A stretch of DNA of 64,000 bases from Desulfovibrio aminophilus. Lineage in GTDB: Bacteria > Desulfobacterota > Desulfovibrionia > Desulfovibrionales > Desulfovibrionaceae. Below, piece after piece: positions 36,514-63,083 of this stretch (its first letter is position 1; each line of letters starts with the position of its first letter). The translations under genes were made by a program, and so were the position numbers. A model generated the notes under the pieces. That model was not told the DNA's origin, did not search any database, and saw only the letters and a list, made by a program, of their open reading frames with translations. The DNA is taken from assembly GCF_023660105.1 (NCBI RefSeq), contig NZ_JAMHGA010000038.1:186001-250000 (forward strand), in the 5' to 3' direction.

Positions 36514-37485
36514 ATGAGCCGCGCCGCAGCCTTCGCGACGGCCCTGCGCGACGTCCTGCGCAACGGCGTCCGCCTGAGCCTCGACCTGTTCAAGATCATG
36601 ATCCCGATCATCGTGACCGTGAAGATCCTCAAGGAGCTGGGGCTCATCACCTACCTGGCCTGGCCCCTGAAGCCGGTCATGGCCCTGGTGGGCCTGCCCG
36701 CCGAGATGGGCCTGGTCTGGGCCACGGCCATGTTCAACAACATCTATTCCGGGATCATCGTGCTCGCCTCCCTGGCGGCCGACGTTCCCCTGACCCAGGC
36801 CCAGGTCACGATCCTGGCCTGCATCATGCTCGTGGCCCACAACCTGCCCATCGAGCTGACCATCGCGCGCAAGTCCGGCCCCCGCCTGCCCTTCCAGTTC
36901 CTCTCCCGGGTCCTGGGGGCCCTGGTCTTCGGCATGCTCCTGCGCCTCGCCTACACGGCCACGGGCGCGCTCCAGGAACCGGCGACGATCCTCTTCCAGG
37001 CCGCCGCCGGGCCGGAGCCCCTCTGGCGCTGGGCCCTGGGAGAGGTCCGCAACCTGCTCTCCATCTTCTGCGTCATCACCACCCTCATCGGCATCATGCG
37101 CCTGCTCCAGGCCCTCCGGCTGCTGGACCTCTGCAACGCCCTGCTGCGGCCCGTGCTGCGGATCATGGGCATCGGCCCGCGGGCCGCGACCATCACCATC
37201 ATCGGACTGGTCATGGGCCTGGCCTACGGCGGCGGGCTCATCATCCACGAATCCCGCGAGGGACAGGTGGACGGCCGGGACGTCTTCGCCTCCCTGACCC
37301 TCATGGGGCTGTGCCACAGCATCATCGAGGACACCCTGCTCATGCTGCTCATCGGCGCGCACCTGTCGGGCATCCTCTGGGGCCGCCTGCTCTTCTCCCT
37401 GGTGGCCACGGCCCTGGTGGTGCGCGTGGCCGCGAGGCTCCCCGCCGCCGCGCGAAACCGCTACCTGTGGGCCGAGGCCCGCTGA
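36514..37485 (+). CDS. Nucleoside-recognition (Gate) domain membrane protein, FeoB-like
   Basis: A 323-residue membrane protein with about eight hydrophobic helices. Two Gate-type repeats are visible: the first around VWATAMFNNIYSGIIVLAS, the second around GLAYGGGLIIHESREG and SLTLMGLCHSIIEDTLLM. It shares the fold of the FeoB and SpmA/B membrane domains but has no G domain. It follows feoB in the same direction after a terminator. Transport of a metal, nucleoside or other solute cannot be decided. GGAGG lies 9 bases before the ATG. Confidence 0.8.
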   Translation: MSRAAAFATALRDVLRNGVRLSLDLFKIMIPIIVTVKILKELGLITYLAWPLKPVMALVGLPAEMGLVWATAMFNNIYSGIIVLASLAADVPLTQAQVTILACIMLVAHNLPIELTIARKSGPRLPFQFLSRVLGALVFGMLLRLAYTATGALQEPATILFQAAAGPEPLWRWALGEVRNLLSIFCVITTLIGIMRLLQALRLLDLCNALLRPVLRIMGIGPRAATITIIGLVMGLAYGGGLIIHESREGQVDGRDVFASLTLMGLCHSIIEDTLLMLLIGAHLSGILWGRLLFSLVATALVVRVAARLPAAARNRYLWAEAR

Positions 37486-37498
37486 CACGGAGGACGAG

Positions 37499-37888
37499 AT
37501 GAACGCGATCACGGTCATCCACACGGACAAGGCCCCGGCCGCTCTGGGGCCCTACTCCCAGGCCCTGGCCTGGAACGGGCTGCTCGTCCTGAGCGGCCAG
37601 ACCGGCCTGGACCCGGCCTCGGGCGAACTCGTCCCGGACTTCGCCGGGCAGGTCCGGCGGGTGCTGGACAACCTGGGCGCGGTGCTGGCCCAGGCCGGAG
37701 CGGGCTTCAACGACGTGCTGGCCGCGGACGTCTTCCTCACGGACATGGGGCGCTTCGCGGAGTTCAACGCCATCTACGCCGAGTACTTCCGGGAGCACAA
37801 ACCGGCCCGCACCACCGTGGCCGTGGCCGCGCTGCCCAAGGGCGGGCAGGTGGAGATCAGGTTCCTGGCCCGGCAGCCCGGGGCCTGA
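37499..37888 (+). CDS. ridA: RidA/YjgF family enamine/imine deaminase
   Basis: A 129-residue protein with RidA hallmarks: GPYSQAL, LSGQTGLDPASGEL, and the C-terminal PARTTVAVAALPKGGQVEI with the carboxylate-binding Arg. It hydrolyses reactive 2-aminoacrylate-type intermediates from PLP enzymes; it forms a cytoplasmic trimer. ATG 37499 lies 13 bases after the Gate protein stop, so the two are probably co-transcribed. Confidence 0.93.
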   Translation: MNAITVIHTDKAPAALGPYSQALAWNGLLVLSGQTGLDPASGELVPDFAGQVRRVLDNLGAVLAQAGAGFNDVLAADVFLTDMGRFAEFNAIYAEYFREHKPARTTVAVAALPKGGQVEIRFLARQPGA

Positions 37889-37938
37889 TCCGGGTCCGCG
37901 CTTGACAACCACGGGGCGCGAGGCGTAAGCGCTTGCTC

Positions 37939-38016
37939 ATGCAGACCCGGACCGACAGCCGCTTCTTTTTCTTCTTTTTCTTTAGCAGCGCCTGTGGTCT
38001 GGGGGTGCGCAAGTAA
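37939..38016 (+). CDS. Phe-rich leader peptide of the aroA' attenuator
   Basis: A 25-codon frame starting ATG CAG ACC CGG, with seven consecutive Phe codons (TTC/TTT, 37963-37983), then Ser-Ser-Ala-Cys and a TAA stop. It lies 113 bases upstream of ADH synthase, the first enzyme of aromatic biosynthesis in these bacteria, and a terminator-like hairpin follows the stop. This is the logic of the pheA leader of enterics. An in-frame TTG two codons earlier has GAGG at 9 bases; the ATG has no good site. A TTGACA at 37902 may be the -35. No homologue is known to me; the assignment rests on sequence pattern and context. Confidence 0.7.
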   Translation: MQTRTDSRFFFFFFFSSACGLGVRK

Positions 38017-38032
38017 GGTCGGCAACGAACAC

Positions 38033-38082
38033 GAAACGCTCCCGAAGGCCGCAGGCATACCGCCCGCGGCCTTCGTCGTTTC
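38033..38082 (+). promoter_or_regulatory. Terminator-like attenuator hairpin before aroA'
   Basis: CGAAGGCCGC (38043-38052) pairs with GCGGCCTTCG (38066-38075), extended by GAAACG/CGTTTC across a small internal loop, 16 bp in total. The T-tract is poor (TCGTCGTTTCC). It begins 16 bases after the leader stop, leaving room for an alternative structure formed when the ribosome stalls at the Phe codons. Confidence 0.6.
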
Positions 38083-38129
38083 CGGCCGCGGCGAACCGGC
38101 GGAGTCGGGACAACCCCAAGGAGGCCAGC

Positions 38130-38924
38130 ATGCAACTGGGCAAATCCATCCGCATCGAGCGCATCGTCAACCGCAACAACGGTCGGACCATCATCGTCCC
38201 CCTGGACCACGGCGTCACCGTGGGCCCGCTCTACGGGCTGGTGGACCTGCGGGCCACCGTGGACCAGATCGCCGACGGCGGGGCCAACGCCGTGCTCATG
38301 CACAAGGGCCTGCCGCGCTGCTCCCATCGCGGGCGCGGACGCGACGTGGGCCTGATCATCCACCTCTCGGCCAGCACCACCCTCTCGCCCCATCCCAACG
38401 CCAAGGCCCTGGTGGGCACGGTGGAGGACGCCCTGAAGCTGGGCGCGGACGGGGTTTCGGTGCACATCAACATGGGCGACGAGGCCGAGGGCCGCATGCT
38501 GGCCGACCTGGGCCAGATGGCGGCCAAGGCCAACGAATGGGGCATGCCGCTCCTGGCCATGATGTACGCGCGCGGACCGGCCGTCACGGACCCCTATGAC
38601 AAGGACGTGGTGGCCCACTGCGCCCGGGTGGCCCTGGAACTGGGCGCGGACATCATCAAGGTGCCCTACACCGGCGACCCGGAGAGCTTCGAGCGCGTGG
38701 TGGAGGCCTGCTGCGTGCCGGTGGTCATCGCCGGAGGCCCCAAGCTCGACGACACCCGCAGCCTGGTCCAGATGGTCCACGACTCGGTGCGCGCCGGCGG
38801 CGCGGGGCTTTCCGTGGGCCGGAACATCTTCCAGCACGAGCATCCCGCCCGTCTGCTGACCGCCCTGGGCAAGGTGGTGCACGAGGACTGGGGCGTGGAC
38901 CAGGCCATGGAACTGCTGGCCTGA
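38130..38924 (+). CDS. 2-amino-3,7-dideoxy-D-threo-hept-6-ulosonate synthase (ADH synthase)
   Basis: A 264-residue class I aldolase of the DhnA/FbaB type. Motifs are RTIIVPLDHGVTVGP, HINMGDEAEG, ADIIKVPYTGD with the Schiff-base Lys, and IAGGPK and GRNIFQHE in the phosphate site. In methanogens and Desulfovibrio this enzyme (AroA') makes the precursor for 3-dehydroquinate in place of DAHP synthase. A fructose-bisphosphate aldolase role is an alternative, but the Phe leader upstream and aroC in the same window favour the aromatic pathway. The partner DHQ synthase II gene is not adjacent. AAGGAGG precedes the ATG. Confidence 0.85.
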   Translation: MQLGKSIRIERIVNRNNGRTIIVPLDHGVTVGPLYGLVDLRATVDQIADGGANAVLMHKGLPRCSHRGRGRDVGLIIHLSASTTLSPHPNAKALVGTVEDALKLGADGVSVHINMGDEAEGRMLADLGQMAAKANEWGMPLLAMMYARGPAVTDPYDKDVVAHCARVALELGADIIKVPYTGDPESFERVVEACCVPVVIAGGPKLDDTRSLVQMVHDSVRAGGAGLSVGRNIFQHEHPARLLTALGKVVHEDWGVDQAMELLA

Positions 38925-38936
38925 CACAAGCGCGCC

Positions 38937-38978
38937 GCGGGCGGCGGCTGGAAATGGTTTCCAGGAATCACCGCCCGC
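38937..38978 (+). terminator. Compound hairpin after the ADH synthase gene
   Basis: The outer stem GCGGGCGG/CCGCCCGC encloses a perfect inner hairpin CTGGAAA-TGG-TTTCCAG. It starts 13 bases after the stop but has no T-run, so terminator function is uncertain. Confidence 0.5.
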
Positions 38979-39113
38979 GCGCCCTTGGCCCGGGCCGGTT
39001 TGATTTTTTTTGTCCGGCGGATTGTCTTTCCAGCGGGAAATATGTATCCATCCCCGAGGATTGCCGTTCAATAAGGGCGGATGGCGCGGACCACGCCCGC
39101 AGGGAGGAAGCCG

Positions 39114-39497
39114 ATGCCTTACGATAAAAACATGCGCATTCTCGTGGTGGACGACTTCTCCACCATGCGCAAGATCATCAAGAACATCCTGCGCCAGCTG
39201 GAACTGACCAACGTGGTGGAGGCCGACGACGGCACCACCGCCTGGGAGGTTCTCAATCGGGACAACATCGATTTCATCGTCTCGGACTGGAACATGCCCA
39301 AGATGAGCGGCATCGAGCTTCTGCGCAAGGTCCGGGCCAGCGAGGAATACGCGGCCACGCCGTTCCTCATGGTCACGGCCGAGGCCCAGCAGGAAAACAT
39401 CATCGAGGCCGTGCAGGCCAAGGTCTCCAACTACATCGTCAAACCCTTCACCCCCGAGACCCTGGCCCAGAAGATCGACAAGATCTTCGGCAAGTAG
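39114..39497 (+). CDS. cheY: CheY-like chemotaxis response regulator
   Basis: A 127-residue single receiver domain. The acidic pair Asp13-Asp14, phosphorylation site Asp58 (SDWNMPKMSG), Thr88 and Lys110 (VKPF) are all present, and the DWNMP form is typical of true CheY acting on flagellar FliM. GGGAGGAAG precedes the ATG. It stands alone, with its own terminator. Confidence 0.92.
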   Translation: MPYDKNMRILVVDDFSTMRKIIKNILRQLELTNVVEADDGTTAWEVLNRDNIDFIVSDWNMPKMSGIELLRKVRASEEYAATPFLMVTAEAQQENIIEAVQAKVSNYIVKPFTPETLAQKIDKIFGK

Positions 39498-62671: not shown

Positions 62672-63007
62672 ATGGCACTTCTTTTCGGCGCACCGGCCCG
62701 CAAGCTCCCCAAGACCGACGACGGCCAGGAGGTCCGGCTTGCCCAGGCCCGCGAGGCCTATCTGGCGGGCAGGATCAAGATCGTGACCACGGACCAGGTG
62801 CCGAACCAGGAAGTGGCCGGGACCTTCGGCCTCATCGTCTGCCGGGGTTTCGTCTTCGAGAACGCCTTCCACGGCCTCATCGCCCAGGCCCTGGACGTGA
62901 ACGCGGACGCCATCGTGGCCTATCGCGAGTCCGTGGCCTTCCACCCCGAGGGCGACCGCTACTACTCCTGCTACGGCACGGCCGTGCGGCTCAAGATCAA
63001 GAAGTAG
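62672..63007 (+). CDS. YbjQ-like (DUF74) small protein
   Basis: A 111-residue protein. VTTDQVPNQEVAGTFGLIVCRGF, ALDVNADAIVAYRES and the terminal YGTAVRLK follow the strand-helix order of YbjQ/heavy-metal-binding DUF74 proteins, which form pentameric rings of unknown function. The N-terminal 30 residues are extra. The match is by topology and a few residues only. Its own terminator follows. Confidence 0.6.
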   Translation: MALLFGAPARKLPKTDDGQEVRLAQAREAYLAGRIKIVTTDQVPNQEVAGTFGLIVCRGFVFENAFHGLIAQALDVNADAIVAYRESVAFHPEGDRYYSCYGTAVRLKIKK

Positions 63008-63019
63008 CCCAAGAACCCA

Positions 63020-63067
63020 AAAACAAGGGGCCCCGGAAGAAAGACTTCCGGGGCCCCTTGTTTTTTT
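63020..63067. terminator. Very strong bidirectional terminator
   Basis: CAAGGGGCCCCGGAAG-AAAGA-CTTCCGGGGCCCCTTG, a 16-bp perfect stem extended by A4/T4, with A-rich and T7 flanks. It ends both the YbjQ-like gene and aroC. Confidence 0.97.
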
Positions 63068-63083
63068 CGCGCTGTCCTTCCCC

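Follow-up and report, generated by a model that had tools for sequence, protein, structure and literature searches.

A putative leader-peptide attenuator with a phenylalanine codon run upstream of a stand-alone ADH synthase gene

The aroA' locus and its upstream region

The stretch of DNA analysed (64,000 nucleotides, hereafter the window) carries a gene confirmed as aroA', encoding 2-amino-3,7-dideoxy-D-threo-hept-6-ulosonate (ADH) synthase: its product scores 389.1 bits against TIGR01949 (ADH_synth; cut-off 299.45) and aligns with MJ0400 (PDB 2qjg) over its length. The flanking genes belong to the RidA and CheY families, and the window aroA' therefore stands alone. An earlier note, made from the letters of the window, had described a strong ribosome site before the gene, preceded by a 25-codon frame with seven consecutive Phe codons at 37963-37983 and a stop at 38014, and by a hairpin at 38033-38082 with a weak T-tract; all of these are present. 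The features of the locus are as follows, in window coordinates.

37903-37908, + strand: -35 element TTGACA of the leader promoter, from comparison of 107 loci
37926-37931, + strand: probable -10 element GTAAGC with a 17-nt spacer, conserved in position in nearly all loci and weak in sequence
37925-37930, + strand: alternative to this -10, CGTAAG, with a 16-nt spacer
37939-38016, + strand: leader ORF of 25 codons, MQTRTDSRFFFFFFFSSACGLGVRK; ATG at 37939, TAA at 38014-38016, without Shine-Dalgarno (SD) motif
37941-37966, + strand: segment 1, 5' arm of the protector hairpin 1:2 (fold of 37939-38012, -32.1 kcal/mol)
37963-37983, + strand: control codons, seven Phe (TTC TTT TTC TTC TTT TTC TTT), nucleotide-identical in three species of the genus
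37990-38000, + strand: segment 2, core GCCTGTGG at 37990-37997, 6 nt after the last Phe codon; pairs with segment 3
38043-38075, + strand: terminator hairpin core, -26.6 kcal/mol; extended stem 38033-38082, -31.7 kcal/mol
38046-38056, + strand: segment 3, core CCGCAGGC at 38049-38056, common to antiterminator 2:3 and terminator 3:4
38076-38083, + strand: weak U-tract after the terminator stem, TCGTTTCC, where relatives have T6-T8
38118-38124, + strand: ribosome binding site of aroA', AAGGAGG
38130-38924, + strand: aroA', ADH synthase, stand-alone paralog

The Phe run is a rarity in its genome. A six-Phe pattern occurs at a single site in the whole 3.54 Mb, the window leader, where two overlapping matches belong to one run, and it has no match in 100 dinucleotide-preserving shuffles of the window. 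The run is common, nucleotide for nucleotide, to the three genomes of the genus, each a separate species.

Conservation of the leader across the order

Homologs of AroA' were found in 54 of 59 genomes sampled from the genus, family and order, often in two to four copies, and a short ORF with an aromatic run lies upstream of nearly every best copy. From 121 AroA' loci, orthologous and paralogous, 107 were preselected for at least five aromatics; at the loci so chosen the best short upstream ORF includes a nine-codon stretch with 5-9 aromatic codons, and 99 of the 107 leaders have at least seven. Of 2104 control windows taken on comparable contigs, 12 reach five aromatics in nine and none reaches seven. 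Most AroA' loci at which no leader was found are tandem second copies or lie in paralog clades of their own. The automatic picker overlooked a few leaders, among them that of L025, which is clearly present (YFFWYFYGNRACG).

A run of end-product codons in a short ORF is thus seen both in the window, with seven Phe of 25 codons, and in 107 relatives with Phe, Tyr and Trp runs. The frame that the earlier note expected to be conserved at orthologous loci is so, all three species of the genus included. Its emphasis on phenylalanine holds for the window, where the leader is Phe-only, and has to be revised for the order, in which the usual leader carries Phe, Tyr and Trp codons together (94 of 107; typically FYFWYFYF-ACGLEG or ...FYFWYFYF-SRACGLEG...) and Phe-only leaders belong to particular paralogs.

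The run is U-rich within an otherwise G+C-rich leader, a composition that would also suit a stretch without structure to which Rho or an RNA-binding protein binds, with the reading frame incidental. There is next to no probability in this, as it is codons that are kept and not U: Tyr (TAT/TAC) and Trp (TGG) substitute for Phe in frame, and TTT, TAT, TGG, TAC and TTC dominate the nine-codon dense stretch. Over this stretch the 107 loci hold 811 aromatic codons in frame, the other two frames holding 272 and 257, and in-frame stops are absent; the geometry of ATG and stop is fixed, and paralog-specific versions with only Phe or only Tyr exist.

A covariance model, R1, was built from 45 leaders. 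Within the order it matches 279 of 297 genomes; of 297 genomes sampled across the phylum it matches 64, and most of the matches beyond the order are weak. In the genome of the window it recovers exactly two aroA' leaders at E<1e-14, the next match having E=0.012. A weak third full-length match, at 62951-63074 of the window, was rejected as an ordinary terminator that follows another gene and has no aromatic leader ORF. Neither the Rfam Phe_leader nor any other Rfam family came near its gathering score in 37000-39200, and relaxing the E-value brought chance matches only.

Promoter and start of the leader

The poor -10 element kept a sigma-70 promoter scan from reporting anything at its threshold, and the promoter was recovered by comparing loci. 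An exact TTGACA stands 35-40 nt 5' of the leader ATG in 94 of the 107 loci, and in nearly all of them the -10 element, weak in sequence, ends 5-12 nt before that ATG. The promoter thereby placed just upstream of 37939 is in keeping with the earlier note, which needed a leader transcript from there. Its spacing predicts that at most loci transcription starts at the leader ATG or within a few nucleotides of it. SD-like motifs precede 16 of 107 leaders versus 105 of 107 aroA' genes; taken with the promoter spacing, this scarcity indicates that the leader is probably a leaderless ORF.

Alternative RNA helices

Three helices can be drawn in the window transcript, each stable and each excluding the others: 1:2 at -32.1 kcal/mol, 2:3 at -36.0 kcal/mol (transcript up to 38064) and 3:4 at -26.6 kcal/mol, or -31.7 kcal/mol with its extended stem of an outer 6 bp, 10 bp and 3 bp. 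Mutually exclusive structures had been proposed as a check of the earlier note, as had a hairpin kept by compensatory changes; terminator and antiterminator are both conserved and both compensated.

In the protector, segment 2 has as its partner segment 1, which lies ahead of the control codons; the pairing is better than in shuffles in 94 of 103 loci (mean z -2.0; z<-1.65 in 65 loci). The antiterminator makes use of the 5' arm of the terminator. Its 2:3 helix has 98.6% of cells paired in 45 loci, with one column covarying among U-A, C-G, A-U and U-G, and pairing falls to 29-47% when the partner is shifted by 1-3 columns. The segment 2 core sits inside the A-C-G codons of the leader. The variable base of segment 3 is opposite a mismatch in the terminator of most loci, yet it matches segment 2; at locus L013, GCCAGCGG occurs with CCGCTGGC while the 3' arm of the terminator is unaltered. 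The fit of this base to segment 2 and not to the terminator argues that the 2:3 helix is selected in its own right. In the window, A38053 of segment 3, the partner of T37993 in segment 2, is a mismatched base in the terminator. The spacings are nearly constant, with medians of 6 nt between the last aromatic codon and segment 2, 24 nt between segment 2 and the stop, and 35 nt between the stop and segment 3.

The terminator lies between the leader ORF and the structural gene, and its stem is 99.8% paired in the 45 loci, with 12 double changes in three columns. Its tract is the weak element in the window species, and a simple terminator scan of the window left the hairpin and T-tract at 38033-38083 unflagged; most relatives have a clean run of T6-T8 there. 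The window species and its closest relative both have the weak tract, so termination at the window locus may be leaky. The same weakness bears on two other explanations. The first is that the attenuator has decayed in this genus, inherited but no longer switching since the terminator lost its U-tract, in line with TCGTTTCC in the window species and its closest relative. This is quite improbable, as the third species of the genus (L003) has GTATTTTT, all three species keep the Phe run, segment 2 and segment 3, either unchanged or with compensation, and the extended stem is strong. According to the second, the uncertainty of intrinsic termination would be met by a leader acting mainly through translational coupling or reinitiation at aroA' and not through transcription termination. 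This is highly improbable given the 113 nt between leader stop and aroA' start, the strong ribosome site that aroA' has of its own (105 of 107 loci), and the T6-T8 tract directly after the conserved hairpin in most relatives.

Proposed mechanism

The reading preferred here, with a probability of about 0.93, is that a ribosome-mediated transcription attenuator of the pheL/trpL type controls the stand-alone ADH synthase. Attenuation of this type is a classical mechanism. The proposal of the earlier note is strongly supported by the comparison of loci; sequence and comparison together establish the leader ORF, its control codons, the position of the promoter, the three exclusive helices, the covariation of 2:3 and 3:4 and the target enzyme, and from these features ribosome stalling, termination and a response to Phe, including altered readthrough with Phe supply, would be expected.

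Transcription would start at the leader ATG or immediately beside it, and a ribosome would load on the leaderless leader ORF. When charged tRNA-Phe is scarce, the ribosome would stall in the seven-Phe run and mask segment 1, leaving segment 2 free to pair with segment 3 as the antiterminator, and RNA polymerase would then read into aroA'. When Phe is plentiful, the ribosome would reach the stop, 17 nt beyond segment 2, and mask the 3' part of segment 2 together with its extension, so that the 3:4 hairpin would form and terminate transcription. If the leader is untranslated, 1:2 would form and termination would follow too. The dimensions of the ribosome suit this scheme: its footprint leaves segment 2 free when it stalls in the first four or five Phe codons and covers the 3' part when it stands at the stop. 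Shortage of the end product should therefore switch the enzyme on.

The earlier note had taken the target for the entry enzyme of the shikimate pathway. The gene does encode ADH synthase; it is, however, a second, stand-alone isozyme. The other AroA' of the same genome (L033 / L053, contig C44) heads the main aromatic operon, aroA'-aroB'-pheA-aroA-tyrA-trpE-trpG-trpD-trpC...trpB, behind its own leader MNFSKPQANSFFTYWYYWRTRACGLGRGAL with Phe, Tyr and Trp codons, predicted to be a sister attenuator. With the main operon under this sister control, the solo copy would add entry flux specifically at low Phe.

Paralogs and leader specificity

Leader specificity, as read from the codons, follows the AroA' paralogs in the tree; physiological control by Phe is a separate matter. 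In a first AroA' tree the Phe-only leaders formed one clade (support 98/91), and a single origin was proposed. This was weakened by wider sampling, in which named genomes were added to the first sample: the enlarged tree has at least two Phe-only clades as well as single rows. The Phe clade that includes the window gene numbers 10 (SH-aLRT 97), another Phe-only clade has four members, Humidesulfovibrio and Desulfocurvus among them (support 99), and a Tyr-rich clade also has four (support 96), of which three are Tyr-only loci of Solidesulfovibrio type. These Tyr-only leaders (YYYY, YYYYY) stand before the second AroA' paralog at L231, L239 and L242. A quick tree gives at least four changes to Phe-only and two to Tyr, and the amino acid specificity of the leader has thus switched repeatedly between paralogs.

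It appears rather probable that the order has shared out its duplicate ADH synthases among the three aromatic amino acids by altering the codons of leaderless leaders, with Phe, Tyr and Trp codons at the main operon, Phe-only leaders arising at least twice and Tyr-only leaders in Solidesulfovibrio. Such a division would parallel, at the level of RNA, the control of the AroG/AroF/AroH isozymes in E. coli, and the same Phe attenuator would act also on a previously unassigned phenylalanine symporter. The paralogs offer a natural series, directly testable, in which codon exchanges within a leader peptide some 30 residues long appear to have tied duplicated enzymes to a single amino acid.

Relation to known systems

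The enterobacterial pheL-pheA system (and trpL) resembles the arrangement described here in having Phe codons in a leader peptide, exclusive protector, antiterminator and terminator helices, and a terminator before the structural gene. The target of pheL-pheA is chorismate mutase/prephenate dehydratase, whereas here it is an entry enzyme; further differences are the lack of an Rfam match at threshold, a leader without SD and relatives that usually sense three amino acids.

Two systems are closer in their target. In Corynebacterium glutamicum, the AroR leader peptide (Phe-Tyr-Phe) belongs to an attenuator of aroF, which encodes a DAHP synthase, and expression rises when Phe is limiting (Neshat et al. 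2014, as summarised in PMC11802643; also PMC4046766). It and the arrangement here share a short leader peptide with aromatic codons before the shikimate entry enzyme; the aroF system differs in its enzyme (DAHP, not ADH, synthase), its three control codons, the absence of Trp and its phylum, and paralog-specific codon sets, as found here, are not linked to it. The uORFC-13-1 motif upstream of aroF in Acholeplasma is a proposed uORF whose Phe-coding U run lies immediately ahead of a terminator (PMC8632094). It is similar in placing a Phe-coding uORF and terminator upstream of a shikimate entry enzyme, and differs in having an RBS, in calling for at least one Phe codon only, in serving a DAHP synthase and in its phylum (PMC8632094). 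For the absence of a Shine-Dalgarno motif there is a likeness in the C. glutamicum ilvBNC leader peptide, which is made in the absence of a ribosome binding site (Morbach et al. 2000, as cited in PMC4046766); it concerns branched-chain amino acids, unlike the leader here, and an actinobacterium.

A search of the open literature found no prior description of leader-peptide attenuation on ADH synthase or in Desulfovibrionales, in agreement with the earlier note, which knew of none for AroA', and aromatic attenuators are absent from the survey of delta-proteobacterial regulation by Rodionov et al. 2004. As far as the open literature shows, the target enzyme, the sensing of three aromatics, the leaderless start and the paralog-specific codon sets are new. 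What emerges is a putative control, order-wide in these sulfate reducers, of the archaeal-type entry step of aromatic biosynthesis, undescribed in the open literature, and the codons of the usual leader suggest one RNA device watching all three aromatic amino acids at once.

Other genes behind similar leaders

The R1 model can also be used to propose functions, as for a sodium:solute symporter (PF00474) of genus g5. Upstream of this symporter gene, which may encode a phenylalanine importer, stand the same Phe-rich leader (e.g. MNTNQNRFSFFFFFSFRFFRSACGLGVCV) and terminator. Two examples are

L061:1809-3131, + strand: PF00474 symporter behind a Phe-rich leader, genus g5
L069:1587-3011, + strand: PF00474 symporter behind a Phe-rich leader, genus g5

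and the arrangement is also seen at L062, L065, L067, L073 and L161. At L141 a leader with aromatic codons, MNKIIPNHSSLYFFWCFYCNGSCGLGELL, stands upstream of a TrpE-like anthranilate synthase gene.

Elsewhere in the Desulfobacterota, aromatic leaders are placed before the entry enzyme that the organism employs, be it AroA' or DAHP synthase, the latter being of the AroFGH type at L091 and of the I-beta type at L093, L095, L100, L106 and L108. Tyr-rich leader ORFs (e.g. MKHNQFMQVYYYYYYYYTKGRNLPAY) with a terminator are found in this wider group at L096 and L105 before an ADP-forming acyl-CoA synthetase, an enzyme that possibly makes aromatic amino acids from aryl acids.
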